The notes under the pieces are model-generated. The model was not told the origin of the DNA and ran no database searches. It was given only the letters and a program-made list of their open reading frames with translations. From an uncultured Verrucomicrobiales bacterium (GTDB taxonomy: Bacteria; Verrucomicrobiota; Verrucomicrobiia; Verrucomicrobiales; Akkermansiaceae), in assembly GCA_937944055.1 (NCBI GenBank), contig CALDZJ010000009.1, forward strand, positions 1 to 64,000: a DNA stretch of 64,000 nucleotides, read 5' to 3'. Position 1 is the stretch's first letter. The number at the start of each line of letters is the position of its first letter. A program made the translations under genes and the position numbers. Below, piece by piece: positions 11,966 to 17,552 of the stretch.

Positions 11966-13186
11966 ATGACAAAACCACTCACGACAGAAGAAAAAATCGT
12001 CCTAGCTGCCATCCTAGGAGCATGCGTCGCAGCCCTGCTACTTTTCGGATTAAACAAAGCCGGATTCAACCCCTTCGGACTTTTTCAGGATCGAGGCTTT
12101 CAGGATCGAGGCACTAGCGGCCTCACTCACACACCTGGAAGCGCCAGCGACCAAAGCCCCAGTGCCCACGGCGACGATAAAGTAGCAAAGATCACGGAAC
12201 TCGAGAACCAAGTCCAATCCCTCAAAGCAGCATCTCCAAACGCGGAAAAAATTGCGGGGCTTGAAGCTCAGCTAGAGAGTGAAAGACGGCAAGCTCAGGC
12301 CCTCGCAGGCAATTCTGAAAAAACGATCAAGGAGCTAAAAGCACGCCTTGCCAAGATCTCAGGCTCATCAGCCTCCACCGAGCTCGGTGTCGCAGGTTCT
12401 GCTCAATTTTCCGAACTCACAGAGAAGCTCGGACTCGCTGAAGCCAAGAACGAGGAACTGGACGCACAACTCAACACCCTCTCTAGCTCCGCCAAAGGTG
12501 AAAACAGCGCACTCAGCGACAAATTGACTGAACTGCAAAGCGAAAACCAAAAACTGTCCGCACAATTGGCTGAAATGAAAGCCGCCCCTCCCGTGAAAAT
12601 CACCCCAAATGTCGATCAGGACACTGCAAGTAAAATGAGCGCCCTCATGGAGACCAAGAGCGCCCAAGAAACGCAAATCGCGAAGCAACGCAGCCAGATT
12701 TCCGAACTCAGCGCGCAGGTGAATCAACTCAAGGCCGCTAAGAATATCTTCGTCGAGTCCACCGATGATCTCCCCGAAAAGGCGAAAGGCTTATTCAATG
12801 ATCTACAAAGCCTCGAAGGCAAGCCTGAAGCAGAAGTCCAGGCCGCCTACCGCGATTATTTAAGCAAACACGGAGCGACAGCTAAGAAGCGGATCAAATT
12901 CGCCTCAGGAAGTTCAGCACTGACATCCCGCGATCGTGAGGCCATCGCCGCACTCACCCAAGCGGCTGATAAAAACACCTACTTTCTCATCGTAGGATAC
13001 GCCGATCAGGCTGGGAGCGCCGCCAGCAATCGCAAGCTTTCATCCGCTCGCTCCACCAGCGTCGCTAAGGAACTCGCCTCAAAGGCAAAGGGCTTTCAAT
13101 CCGCTCAAGCCGTTTACCTCGGACAGACTGAGCGCTTCGGAGCATCCTCTGAAAACCGCGTAGTCGAGATCTGGGAGATTCAATAA
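11966..13186 (+). CDS. OmpA-family protein with membrane anchor and coiled coil
   Basis: The 406-residue product has an N-terminal membrane span (IVLAAILGACVAALLLFGL, about residues 10-28) and a low-complexity linker containing an exact duplication (FQDRG twice). A long coiled coil follows (about 70-260, heptads such as KITELENQVQSLKA), then a C-terminal OmpA-like domain (about 300-406; KFASGSSAL, VGYADQAGS, NRVVEIWE). OmpA-like domains bind peptidoglycan, so this protein could tie the inner membrane to the cell wall. GAGG seven bases before the ATG is a reasonable ribosome site. It stands 97 bases behind the VWA cluster and may be part of it. Confidence 0.85.
   Translation: MTKPLTTEEKIVLAAILGACVAALLLFGLNKAGFNPFGLFQDRGFQDRGTSGLTHTPGSASDQSPSAHGDDKVAKITELENQVQSLKAASPNAEKIAGLEAQLESERRQAQALAGNSEKTIKELKARLAKISGSSASTELGVAGSAQFSELTEKLGLAEAKNEELDAQLNTLSSSAKGENSALSDKLTELQSENQKLSAQLAEMKAAPPVKITPNVDQDTASKMSALMETKSAQETQIAKQRSQISELSAQVNQLKAAKNIFVESTDDLPEKAKGLFNDLQSLEGKPEAEVQAAYRDYLSKHGATAKKRIKFASGSSALTSRDREAIAALTQAADKNTYFLIVGYADQAGSAASNRKLSSARSTSVAKELASKAKGFQSAQAVYLGQTERFGASSENRVVEIWEIQ
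12083..12112. repeat. Exact 15-bp tandem duplication
   Basis: TTTCAGGATCGAGGC occurs twice in succession, encoding FQDRG twice just after the membrane span of the OmpA-family protein. Confidence 0.9.
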
Positions 13187-13689
13187 TCGCCCCCTACATC
13201 TTCTTCCCCTCGAGCCTCCCCAAGTCCCCCCTCCCGGGCCTCCGTTGAAAGGAACTGCGAAAGCGCTTCTAATCGCTTCGCGGTTTCCGCACGGAGAGCT
13301 CTCAACATCAAAGGCTCCAACAAGCCGCGCAAAAAAAAGGGACGCGCAGTAAAGCGGAATTTATATGTCGCAATTGATCCAAGCTCGTTATCTTCATGAC
13401 GAATCGACGCTGCGAACTCGGCAAAGAATGGAGGCTTATTGATCATTTCGACCGCCGCAATCTCGCCCTCCCGGTAGGTCACATAACGGGTCTCCAGCCC
13501 AAATAGACCGAAAAAAGGACGCCCAACACAGAGCGAAGTCGCCCCTTTCCCTGCCTCACTATGTCCGCGGGTCAGCTCCGCTTTTTTAAGAAGAGTATCC
13601 CACTCAAGCCGCCTCTCGTAATTGTGAAGGAGGGCAAATACCTCCTGAGAACTAAGCGGCATTTGCTCGCTGACTGTCACCGCTCTCAT
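13180..13689 (-). CDS. SRPBCC-fold (START-like) protein
   Basis: The 169-residue product matches the SRPBCC/polyketide-cyclase fold. It has an N-terminal strand MRAVTVSEQMPLSSQEVFALL, then YERRLEWDTLLKKAEL, a beta-sheet middle, and a long C-terminal helix (RALRAETAKRLEALSQFL). Such proteins bind hydrophobic ligands in a deep cavity; the ligand is unknown here. A hydrophobic loop RPFFLRGLLEPLML lies before the last helix. The last seven bases overlap the convergent OmpA-family gene. No partner gene is evident. Confidence 0.75.
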   Translation of the reverse strand: MRAVTVSEQMPLSSQEVFALLHNYERRLEWDTLLKKAELTRGHSEAGKGATSLCVGRPFFGLFGLETRYVTYREGEIAAVEMINKPPFFAEFAASIRHEDNELGSIATYKFRFTARPFFLRGLLEPLMLRALRAETAKRLEALSQFLSTEAREGGLGEARGEEDVGGDY

Positions 13690-13845: not shown

Positions 13846-15495
13846 TCACTCGGCATCTTTATAAGACTTCACGACCAGTTCACTCAGGAATTTATCGGGA
13901 TATTTCACAGCCGCTTCCGTAAGGAGAAAGTCTGATTGACCCGTATTTTTTTGAATCAGTTTAAGCCCGAATTGATAATCCCGGAAGTGCTGCCGCGCCA
14001 CTTGGAAAACGCTGCGGGCTTGCTCCCCAGCCATTTGCACCAGCGCGGACATCGCATCGTCCGCGAGCTTAATCTCCACCCCGTGTTTTTCCTTAAACTC
14101 TCGGATGAAGGCCTCTACTTCGTGTCTTGCCTTCTCCACCACTAACTCTTGGCCCAGTTCACGATAGCCTTCCAGATGCTTCTCCCGATGATCGATCAAA
14201 TCCGCATCCACCGCGAGTTCAGTAACTGAGGTCCCAGGGAGCTCATACTTAAAATCGCGTAAGATTTTTTCCCCCACCGTCATGAGACCTCGAGCCCCAG
14301 TTTTCTCTCCGGCGGCCATCTCTGCAATGCGCCGGATCCCGCTATCTTTAAACTTAATGTCGATCCCGTAAGCCTCGAACTCACGTTCATACTGACGGAG
14401 CAGACTCCCTTCTGAGTATTTTAAAATCGCCTCCAGATCTGCTGCTTCTAAGTGCTCACAGACCACACGCACCGGAATCCTCCCGATAAACTCCGCCTCG
14501 AAGCCGAAGTCGATATAGTCTTGAGAGCTCACCTGCTTAAAGAGTTCACCATCCATTGCGGGCTCGGCTTGATCGGCCGAGAATCCAATTTGAGCGGCCT
14601 GACTGCGTTTGCGCACGATTTTTTCAAGCCCTGAAAAAGCGCCACTCACGATAAAAAGAATATGCCTCGTATTGATCGTATCCTTCTCCTGCTTCCCATT
14701 TTGCAGATCCATCATCGCCATCATCTGACCGCGCATGTCCTGTGCATTACGAACTGGGACTTCCGTTTCCTCCATCAATTTTAGCAGAGTGGTCTGCACC
14801 CCACGCCCGCTCACATCACGCCCCATCATTCCGCCGCCTCCGGAAGCCAGCTTATCAATTTCATCGATGTAAATGATCCCATATTCCGCGAGCGAGACAT
14901 CACCATCCGCTTTTGTCACCAACTCCCGGACCAAGTCATCGACATCGCCTCCCACGTATCCTGTTTCCGAGAACTTCGTGGCATCAGCTTTCACAAAAGG
15001 CACGCCGATCAGCTCTGCGATGTGCTTGACGAGGTAGGTTTTCCCCACCCCAGTCGGCCCCACCACCATGACATTTTGCTTTTGTAGCTCAAGCCGCTCA
15101 CCGCTCGCATCCTCGGCCCTATTCGCCTCGTGATCCTTCGCCACTTTCACATGATTATAGTGATCACAGACCGCGATCGCGAGGGCCTTCTTCGCCTCGT
15201 CCTGCCGGATCACAAAGCGGTCTAAATGGGCTTTGATATCGCGAGGCAGAAGATCGAACTGGAAAATATCATCGTTCGGGGGCTTCACTTCAGTGACTTC
15301 CTCAGACCCCTCTGCCTCCGAAAATGGCCCACCGGTCATTCCTGGAAAGCTAAAGCCTCCTTTCCCCATCTTGCCAAACATCCCCTCCAAGGTCTTGCGG
15401 ATATCGTCCGGGTCAGGAAAACCCGGACCTTGCGGCTCCTGCGGCTCCTCAGGAGTCTTCGGCTTCTTAGGCTCGCCTTTATCGTCACTGCTCAT
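13846..15495 (-). CDS. ClpX-like AAA+ unfoldase lacking the zinc domain
   Basis: The AAA+ core closely follows ClpX: Walker A GPTGVGKTYL, pore-1 loop GYVGGD, Walker B IIYIDEIDK, arginine region GARGLMTV, and the IGF loop used by ClpX to dock on ClpP (AAQIGFSADQ). The N-terminal Cys4 zinc-binding domain is absent; in its place is a Pro/Glu and then Gly/Phe/Met-rich segment without cysteine. About 100 extra residues extend the C-terminus with an EKHGVEIKLADDAM helix-strand unit. The product is 549 residues from 15495 (ClpX is about 420); an upstream methionine at 15543 would add 16 residues. No clpP or tig gene is nearby. ATP-driven unfolding of unknown substrates is inferred. Confidence 0.85.
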   Translation of the reverse strand: MSSDDKGEPKKPKTPEEPQEPQGPGFPDPDDIRKTLEGMFGKMGKGGFSFPGMTGGPFSEAEGSEEVTEVKPPNDDIFQFDLLPRDIKAHLDRFVIRQDEAKKALAIAVCDHYNHVKVAKDHEANRAEDASGERLELQKQNVMVVGPTGVGKTYLVKHIAELIGVPFVKADATKFSETGYVGGDVDDLVRELVTKADGDVSLAEYGIIYIDEIDKLASGGGGMMGRDVSGRGVQTTLLKLMEETEVPVRNAQDMRGQMMAMMDLQNGKQEKDTINTRHILFIVSGAFSGLEKIVRKRSQAAQIGFSADQAEPAMDGELFKQVSSQDYIDFGFEAEFIGRIPVRVVCEHLEAADLEAILKYSEGSLLRQYEREFEAYGIDIKFKDSGIRRIAEMAAGEKTGARGLMTVGEKILRDFKYELPGTSVTELAVDADLIDHREKHLEGYRELGQELVVEKARHEVEAFIREFKEKHGVEIKLADDAMSALVQMAGEQARSVFQVARQHFRDYQFGLKLIQKNTGQSDFLLTEAAVKYPDKFLSELVVKSYKDAE

Positions 15496-15683: not shown

Positions 15684-16577
15684 ATGCGCAAAGCTTTCCT
15701 TCTCGGAGCCGGCCTCGGCACGCGGCTCCAGCCTCTGACTCATACGCTCCCCAAGCCCCTCATTCCTTTTGCGAATCGGCCGCTTATGACTCATGTTCTC
15801 GATCACTGCATCGCGGCTGGTATTAGCGATTTTGCGATCAATACCCACCACCTTCACGAGGCCTGGCATCAGGCTTTTCCTGAGGGATCTTATCGCGGAG
15901 CTAAGCTCACCTTTTTCCACGAACCGATCCTCCTAGAAACCGGCGGAGGGATTAAGAACATCGCCGAGTGGATCAATGGAGACCCCATCCTCGTTTACAA
16001 TGGCGACATCATCACGGATCTGCCCATTGATCGGCTCATGACTGGCCACATGGCTTCAAATAACGTCGCCACCCTCGCGACGCAAGATCATGGCCCCGCG
16101 CTCCACCTCGCGATCGAGGGGCACCGCATCACAGATATCCGAGGCCTCGTCAATGGCCAAGAGGGCCAGCACCAATTCACAGGAATCTACTGCATCGATG
16201 CAGAGATTCTCGATCTCATTCCGGCAGATGAAAAAATCTCAGTGATCCCCGCCTTTCTAGAGCTGATCAAACGCGGGCAACTCGGAGCCTACCATGTCAA
16301 AGGGACCCCTCAGTGGCTCGACCTTGGCACCCGCGAATCCTATCTCGAGGCGAGCTTCTCCATGACTCCCGAAGTCCACGCTGAGGCGGATATCGCCCCC
16401 TCAGCCCAGATCACGAATTCTTGGATCGGGCCCGGCTGCACGGTGGAAGACGGAGCGCACATTCAGGACTCTATTCTCTGGGCTGGCAGCTCTGTTTTGA
16501 GGGATGCGCAATTGACAAATTGTATCGTTCACAGCACTTCCCCCGTCACGGGCGTCCATCAAGACGCCGATCTCTAA
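15684..16577 (+). CDS. murU: Sugar-1-phosphate nucleotidyltransferase, MurU-like
   Basis: The N-terminal nucleotidyltransferase domain carries LLGAGLGTRLQPLT (about 6-19), KPLIPFANRPL, the ETGGGI loop and the metal-binding VYNGD. From about residue 235 the sequence has hexad-like left-handed beta-helix repeats (AEADIAPSAQI, IGPGCTVEDGAHI), so it is longer (297 residues) than the classical MurU of Pseudomonas (about 220). The next gene is an AmgK-like sugar kinase, 34 bases downstream. The pair therefore suggests MurNAc-1-phosphate to UDP-MurNAc conversion in cell-wall recycling. Mannose-1-phosphate guanylyltransferase or another NDP-sugar synthase remains possible, since this fold does not fix the sugar. 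Confidence 0.7.
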   Translation: MRKAFLLGAGLGTRLQPLTHTLPKPLIPFANRPLMTHVLDHCIAAGISDFAINTHHLHEAWHQAFPEGSYRGAKLTFFHEPILLETGGGIKNIAEWINGDPILVYNGDIITDLPIDRLMTGHMASNNVATLATQDHGPALHLAIEGHRITDIRGLVNGQEGQHQFTGIYCIDAEILDLIPADEKISVIPAFLELIKRGQLGAYHVKGTPQWLDLGTRESYLEASFSMTPEVHAEADIAPSAQITNSWIGPGCTVEDGAHIQDSILWAGSSVLRDAQLTNCIVHSTSPVTGVHQDADL

Positions 16578-16610
16578 AGACCCTACTTCTCTCTATCCCC
16601 GCTATCCCCG

Positions 16611-17552
16611 ATGCCTGCCGATACTCTACTCACTGCGATCCGCGCCCACCTAGATCTATCCCCAACCCATCGCGTCCTAATGGAGCCTATCCAAAAAGGA
16701 GCCTCTGGCCGCACCATCATCCGCATTCGTCCAGATGATCACCCCAGCTTTATCGGCATCCACTACACGCTCGAGCGCTCGGATAATGCGAACTTCCTCC
16801 CAGTTGCAGAATTCCTCACCAGCGCTGGTTTAAATATCCCGCGAGTCCTTTACGATAATACCCGCCGCCAAGTTGCCCTGATTGAGGACCTCGGCGATAA
16901 AGATCTCCTGAGTCTGAAAGAGGCCCCCTACGAGGAGCGCGAGCCCTATTACCGCTCCGCCTTTGAGCAGCTTGATAAACTCCTCTACACCCGCCCACCA
17001 AAAGACTTCGATCTCCAGCCCGTCTTCGACGAGCCTCTCTATCGCTGGGAACAAGAATACTTCTTCGAGCACTTCATCGAAACCCACCTCGGTAAAGACA
17101 GCTCAGCGCTCCGTGATGAACCAGCCTTCCTCAGTCTTGCCAAGCGCCTCGGCGCGACCGCGCCCCACATGGTTCATCGTGATTTTCAATCAGAGAACCT
17201 CATGCGCCACAAGGGCCAGTCTTATCTGATCGACTTCCAAGGCCTCCGCATGGGACGGCAAGAATACGACCTCGCCTCACTCATTTATGATCCCTACATG
17301 AATCACTCAGCTGAGGATCGTGCAAGGCTCCTCGAGCTCTGGGAAGAAGTGTGCGAAGAAGAACCGATCGCCCCCATCCTCAAGGACTGCGCAGCGCAAC
17401 GCCTCATGCAAGCCCTAGGCGCCTTCGCCAACCTCGGGCACAATCAAGACAATCAGTGGTATCTCGAGCAAATCCCGGCCGCCCTCAACTTCCTCAAGGA
17501 AGTCATCGCAGACACCCCGCTGGCAGATGCGCTGGGTCCCGTTCTCGACTAA
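16611..17552 (+). CDS. amgK: AmgK-like anomeric sugar kinase (APH fold)
   Basis: This aminoglycoside-phosphotransferase-fold protein of 313 residues has the catalytic loop MVHRDFQSENLM (about 183-194) and the metal-binding LIDFQGLRMG. EYDLASLIYDPYM follows, a sequence typical of AmgK, the kinase that phosphorylates MurNAc and GlcNAc at the anomeric carbon. It lies directly behind the MurU-like gene, the gene partnership known from Pseudomonas putida. Together they would bypass de novo UDP-MurNAc synthesis. The substrate is inferred from the neighbour and motif, not proven. The ATG has no Shine-Dalgarno; the leader is C/T-rich. Confidence 0.75.
   Translation: MPADTLLTAIRAHLDLSPTHRVLMEPIQKGASGRTIIRIRPDDHPSFIGIHYTLERSDNANFLPVAEFLTSAGLNIPRVLYDNTRRQVALIEDLGDKDLLSLKEAPYEEREPYYRSAFEQLDKLLYTRPPKDFDLQPVFDEPLYRWEQEYFFEHFIETHLGKDSSALRDEPAFLSLAKRLGATAPHMVHRDFQSENLMRHKGQSYLIDFQGLRMGRQEYDLASLIYDPYMNHSAEDRARLLELWEEVCEEEPIAPILKDCAAQRLMQALGAFANLGHNQDNQWYLEQIPAALNFLKEVIADTPLADALGPVLD

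Follow-up and report, generated by a model that had tools for sequence, protein, structure and literature searches.

Does a gene whose product keeps the AAA+ core of ClpX while lacking its Cys4 zinc domain encode a second ClpP-docking unfoldase with substrates of its own? The locus raising this question lies within a window of 64,000 nucleotides (the whole stretch of DNA analysed) from an uncultured Verrucomicrobiales bacterium of the Akkermansiaceae, whose genome assembly comprises 2.59 Mb in 108 contigs and is 92% complete. It is common to regard ClpX as a single family that chooses its substrates in a single way, through zinc-domain adaptors and the RKH loop. In the ClpX ring each large domain rests against the small domain of the neighbouring subunit, the IGF loops dock in clefts of ClpP, and the pore loops line the channel together with the RKH loop, which is said to be unique to ClpX (PMC12383707). 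The first-pass annotation of the locus, made from the sequence alone, had described a ClpX-like protein with GYVG and IGF loops, an acidic Gly/Phe-rich segment in place of the zinc domain and additional C-terminal residues, and had taken this to suggest a second ClpX-type machine with different substrates. It had proposed to look for a canonical clpX and for multiple clpP genes elsewhere in the genome and to build a tree of ClpX-like AAA+ proteins.

Architecture and conservation of the encoded protein

The gene encodes an AAA+ unfoldase of a third clade besides ClpX and HslU, for which we use “ClpX2” as a convenience label; it is distinct from the ClpX2 of Myxococcus xanthus. The reading frame starts with ATG, and this start is supported by the homologues since they share a beginning of the MSDDDK type. 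The features are as follows, with conservation counts referring to 38 aligned ClpX2 members from several phyla.

13846-15495, minus strand: whole gene, 549 residues, ClpX/HslU-type AAA+ unfoldase of the third clade (ClpX2)
15250-15495, minus strand: N-terminal segment without cysteine at the place of the zinc domain, residues 1-82 (low pLDDT in the model)
15373-15417, minus strand: N-terminal helix motif PDPDDIRKTLEGMFG, residues 27-41, consensus P-x-P-E-E-[IL]-x-K-x-[LI] (column counts; helix 29-41 in the model)
15037-15060, minus strand: Walker A GPTGVGKT, residues 146-153 (columns invariant or nearly so)
14950-14961, minus strand: pore-1 loop GYVG, residues 179-182 (G, Y and G in 38/38, V in 37/38)
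14857-14874, minus strand: Walker B IYIDEI, residues 208-213 (D211 and E212 invariant)
14677-14754, minus strand: insert VRNAQDMRGQMMAMMDLQNGKQEKDT at the place of the RKH loop of ClpX, residues 248-273 (alignment; Q and hydrophobic residues abundant in the clade)
14581-14589, minus strand: IGF tripeptide of the putative ClpP-docking loop, residues 303-305 (I in 37 of 38 members, V in one; G in all 38; F in 36, I in two; flanks variable)
14479-14481, minus strand: arginine finger R339 (invariant)
14176-14448, minus strand: first AAA+ small domain with sensor-2 GAR, residues 350-440 (G400, A401 and R402 invariant)
14290-14298, minus strand: sensor-2 GAR motif, residues 400-402 (invariant)
13849-14187, minus strand: C-terminal extension consisting of a long helix and a second small domain, residues 437-549 (structure models)
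13891-14124, minus strand: second, degenerate AAA+ small domain, residues 458-535, sensor-2 GAR lost (hhalign; fold search)

The intact ClpX-type core recognised by the first-pass annotation is clearly present, with GYVG at residues 179-182 and IGF at residues 303-305, and its homology to ClpX is not a matter of chance since the match to the NCBIfam ClpX family reaches E = 1e-101 and relatives occur in many phyla. Cysteine is found at positions 110 and 346 only and thus nowhere among residues 1-109, so that the Cys4 zinc domain is, as claimed, absent; likewise, no zinc-domain pattern is present in the N-regions of the other aligned ClpX2 rows. The acidic, Gly/Phe-containing composition of the segment standing in its place was described correctly, and a short conserved helix motif has to be added to the description. 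Solved ClpX aligns with residues 83-443, leaving about 106-110 extra residues at the C-terminus, which agrees with the addition noted earlier. Two features had been overlooked: all 38 members have, in place of the RKH loop, a conserved stretch of about 25 inserted residues, and the residues added at the C-terminus amount to a second small domain.

Little or no variation is seen in the residues of Walker A and B, arginine finger and sensor-2. The IGF tripeptide is nearly fixed, the two members with IGI in its place belonging to the Bdellovibrionia; R297, six residues before it, is invariant, and the 18 positions following it are mostly strongly variable. One close pair of members yields a dN of 0.07 and a dS of 3.4, synonymous sites being saturated in the other pairs. 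ClpX2 is under strong purifying selection. A decayed ClpX was rejected as an explanation because all catalytic residues are kept under this selection.

In the full-length AlphaFold model (mean pLDDT 76) the pore-1, pore-2 and IGF regions are flexible and the loop 306-313 following IGF is disordered. The same three loops are described as disordered in crystals of ClpX (PMC12383707). A fold search of the PDB with ClpX2 returned ClpX chains, many of them out of ClpXP complexes, for all of the best 50 matches.

A second small domain in the C-terminal extension

Behind the first small domain the model shows a long helix succeeded by the order strand-helix-helix-helix-strand-helix, which is that of an AAA+ small domain. 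Comparison of the extension with the small domain of ClpX2 itself by hhalign gave a probability of 98.2% and a score of 76.3 over 73 columns, compared to at most 16.6 for 60 column-permuted controls and at most 15.3 for segments elsewhere in the core. Folded alone, the extension reaches a pLDDT of 79, and its 50 best PDB matches are all ClpX or HslU chains (probability 0.80-1.00, TM to query 0.42-0.54), with E-values of only 0.07-0.5. A Pfam scan of the extension, one per member, revealed no convincing family, and the best ClpX match in a PDB sequence search with it has E = 0.16. ClpX2 carries the AAA+ small domain twice, the copy in the C-terminal extension being degenerate. The profile of the extension scores 77 against the small domain of the ClpX2 clade, 41 against that of ClpX and 32 against that of HslU. 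That it is closest to the small domain of its own clade suggests that the domain was duplicated internally at an early stage of the clade.

A 430-residue ClpX2 without the second small domain is encoded in Puniceicoccales MAGs (0.7-0.9 Mb assemblies; L088:7953-9242, L089:907-2193 and L090:8049-9338).

ClpX2 forms a clade separate from ClpX and HslU

The protein stays below the cut-offs of both NCBIfam ClpX models (340.8 bits vs 359 and 306.6 bits vs 370.75) and reaches 194 bits against HslU, whose cut-off is 362. A careful maximum-likelihood tree was calculated from the shared core of 48 proteins (22 ClpX, 21 ClpX2 and 5 HslU). In this unrooted tree ClpX, ClpX2 and HslU each form one group with a support of 100/99, and the ClpX proteins of ClpX2-bearing genomes, including that of the host, fall inside the ClpX group. 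Hence the term “ClpX-like”, correct for the core, understates the separation, as ClpX2 is about as far from ClpX as HslU is. A recent duplicate of the local ClpX was rejected since ClpX2 is a separate deep clade.

ClpX2 shares with ClpX (TIGR00382 / NF003745) the order of the AAA+ core, GYVG, the IGF loop, sensor-2 GAR and the arginine finger, at 41-43% identity over about 335-350 residues (43% to the core of E. coli ClpX). It differs in that it has neither Cys4 zinc domain nor RKH loop and in possessing the clade-specific insert and the second small domain. With HslU (ClpY; TIGR00390) it has in common the missing zinc domain, the GYVG pore and an ATKF-E-GYVG stretch; the IGF loop, an identity of 34% and the ClpX-like colinear core set it apart. 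ClpC, also present in the host genome, is a ClpP-feeding Hsp100 with an LGF loop; unlike ClpX2 it has two AAA+ modules and an N-domain and thus another architecture.

Myxococcus xanthus ClpX3 (MXAN_2743) has a ClpX-type core without N-domain and RKH motif (PMC11423568). Short Myxococcota ClpX-like proteins without N-domain are likely kin of it. In contrast to ClpX2, they comprise 354-392 residues, have GYYG pores, lack a C-terminal extension and branch next to ClpX. Membership of ClpX2 in a ClpX3-like group was rejected on account of this branching, the tree containing these similar proteins and not MXAN_2743 itself. A set of short Myxococcota ClpX-like proteins (L211-L216, 354-392 residues) combines GYYG pores with a QHWSKHDF stretch at the RKH position of ClpX and branches next to ClpX. 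A further Myxococcota protein of 400 residues (L210:1-1901) with N-terminal cysteines (CSFCG, CTTC) and no obvious RKH forms a long branch beside ClpX.

In the open-licence papers searched we found no account of the ClpX2 clade; an earlier description elsewhere is possible. ClpX2 is apparently an old, separate branch of the ClpX/HslU group which is spread across several phyla and uncharacterised.

Distribution and Clp inventory

The relatives are 44-93% identical and occur in Verrucomicrobiota, Kiritimatiellota (Kiritimatiellae), Omnitrophota, Auribacterota (Tritonobacter), Planctomycetota, Bdellovibrionota (Bdellovibrionia), Poribacteria and Myxococcota, where they are rare (one of 78 genomes). 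Scores among 115 Verrucomicrobiota genomes are bimodal: 25 contain a ClpX2 member (604-815 bits), 88 ClpX only (289-345 bits), and two were without a match at the threshold. The clade is missing from fourteen genomes belonging to another genus of the host's family. The matches listed for phages, plasmids and viral contigs include no ClpX2 member; they are other ClpX-type or remoter AAA+ proteins whose identity does not exceed about 42% and which lack the C-terminal part. A phage or plasmid origin was rejected as no member was among these matches.

The host genome encodes, on a separate contig, the canonical zinc-domain ClpX that was to be looked for (632 bits, LGF loop). It also encodes ClpC and a single true ClpP adjoining tig; multiple clpP genes were not seen. 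Related genomes usually possess one ClpP of about 250-275 bits plus weaker ClpP-fold matches, and three drafts of 81-92% completeness (G007, G015 and G017) have a weak ClpP match only. Five ClpX2-bearing Verrucomicrobiota genomes (G076, G085, G127, G116 and G144) show a second ClpP of about 221-227 bits beside the main one. Outside the set of relatives, 47 ClpX2 genomes were examined and 45 of them have a true ClpP, a co-occurrence of little weight since ClpP is nearly universal in these genomes. In the two exceptions (G091 and G173), both drafts, ClpX2 is found and neither true ClpP nor canonical ClpX was detected; these drafts probably miss a clpP-clpX stretch.

In two reduced genomes ClpX2 is retained without ClpX. 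These assemblies (G073 and G094), each of 0.9 Mb in one contig and 99% complete, contain a ClpX2 match, no canonical ClpX, one ClpP at a distance of about 10 kb from ClpX2, and two Hsp100 proteins, ClpB and ClpC by sequence. ClpC alone could explain why ClpP is kept.

Gene neighbourhood

In nine loci recR lies downstream of ClpX2 on the same strand (L056, L059, L061, L065, L110, L112, L057, L058 and L091), directly adjoining it in the reduced-genome loci L110 and L112 and separated by one gene in the others. Locus L061 belongs to Persicirhabdus sediminis, a cultured relative. This association was not seen outside the Verrucomicrobiota, and no conserved neighbour indicating a substrate, nor clpP, was found across phyla. 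In the window, ClpX2 is followed on the same strand by a gene for an SRPBCC/polyketide-cyclase-like protein (13180-13689), a pairing not widely conserved as far as seen. Divergent from ClpX2, positions 15684-17552 encode a nucleotidyltransferase with hexapeptide tail and an APH-family phosphotransferase, in an order resembling the MurU/AmgK pair of cell-wall recycling.

Proposed function and alternative explanations

We consider it likely that ClpX2 is an active hexameric unfoldase of the ClpX/HslU group which docks on ClpP and has substrates of its own. A hexamer would grip substrates with its GYVG pore loops, ATP would be hydrolysed by the complete active site, and the IGF loops would dock the ring on the single ClpP of the genome, whereby one peptidase would be common to ClpX, ClpC and ClpX2. 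As zinc domain and RKH loop are both missing, ssrA-type tags and zinc-domain adaptors would not be recognised in the manner of ClpX. Selection of other substrates probably falls to the N-terminal helix motif and to the insert that the clade has at the pore entrance, and from this we infer that the substrates of ClpX2 differ from those of ClpX. The second small domain probably packs outside the ring, stabilising it or carrying a partner, which is the least certain step. The second machine with different substrates suggested by the first-pass annotation is, as an inference, well supported by the canonical ClpX and true ClpP of the same genome, by an IGF tripeptide kept while its flanks vary, and by the absence of zinc domain and RKH loop.

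A different reading takes ClpX2 for a remodelling chaperone independent of ClpP which unfolds or rearranges specific complexes, IGF being kept for internal structure or for another docking partner. Given its second small domain and conserved N-terminal motif, ClpX2 may have partners that differ from those of ClpX, the position of recR could point to a DNA-related role, and mitochondrial ClpX sets a precedent, being reported to act by partial unfolding without degradation (PMC7077987). Nevertheless, IGF and the arginine upstream of it are fixed positions in a variable loop, and the frequent presence of a true ClpP adds a minor argument. HslU is not known to use ClpP or to have an IGF-type loop in its sequence. 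We therefore regard a role apart from ClpP as unlikely, though worth keeping in mind.

Still less probable in our view is that ClpX2 is in function a divergent ClpX whose substrates overlap with those of ClpX, serving as a spare unfoldase under stress without any special role. The core identity to E. coli ClpX fits such a protein, as does the finding in M. xanthus that a ClpX devoid of N-domain and RKH motif is of importance for growth at 36 degrees, a truncated ClpX partly taking its place (PMC11423568). However, a separate deep clade is not a recent paralogue, insert, N-terminal helix and second small domain are kept over several phyla, and the two reduced genomes have lost ClpX, not ClpX2. 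That ClpX2 might be an HslU-type ATPase working with HslV appears hardly credible: although the pore surroundings ATKFSETGYVG are by eye nearer to HslU, the zinc domain is absent from HslU too, and a midpoint-rooted quick tree sets ClpX2 beside HslU, a join flagged as a possible long-branch artefact, none of 96 Verrucomicrobiota genomes, the host included, contains an HslU above the cut-off. ClpX is moreover the best family match (341 bits vs 194 for HslU), and an IGF loop is present. Identity with HslU was rejected on family score, genome survey and separate clade.

Returning to ClpX2 as a ClpP-docking unfoldase, a bolder version holds that the tandem small domain forms an extra layer of the ring altering ClpP docking or substrate intake, as part of a parallel ClpP pathway which reads a degron code of its own and can outlast ClpX in genome-reduced symbionts. 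This we put forward tentatively, with more doubt than conviction.

The survival of ClpX2 in reduced genomes without ClpX hints at an important client. The clade amounts to a natural experiment on which parts of ClpX serve ClpP docking and which serve substrate choice. If the proposed function is true, Verrucomicrobiota and their allied phyla would possess a whole class of regulated proteolysis that is still unexplored.
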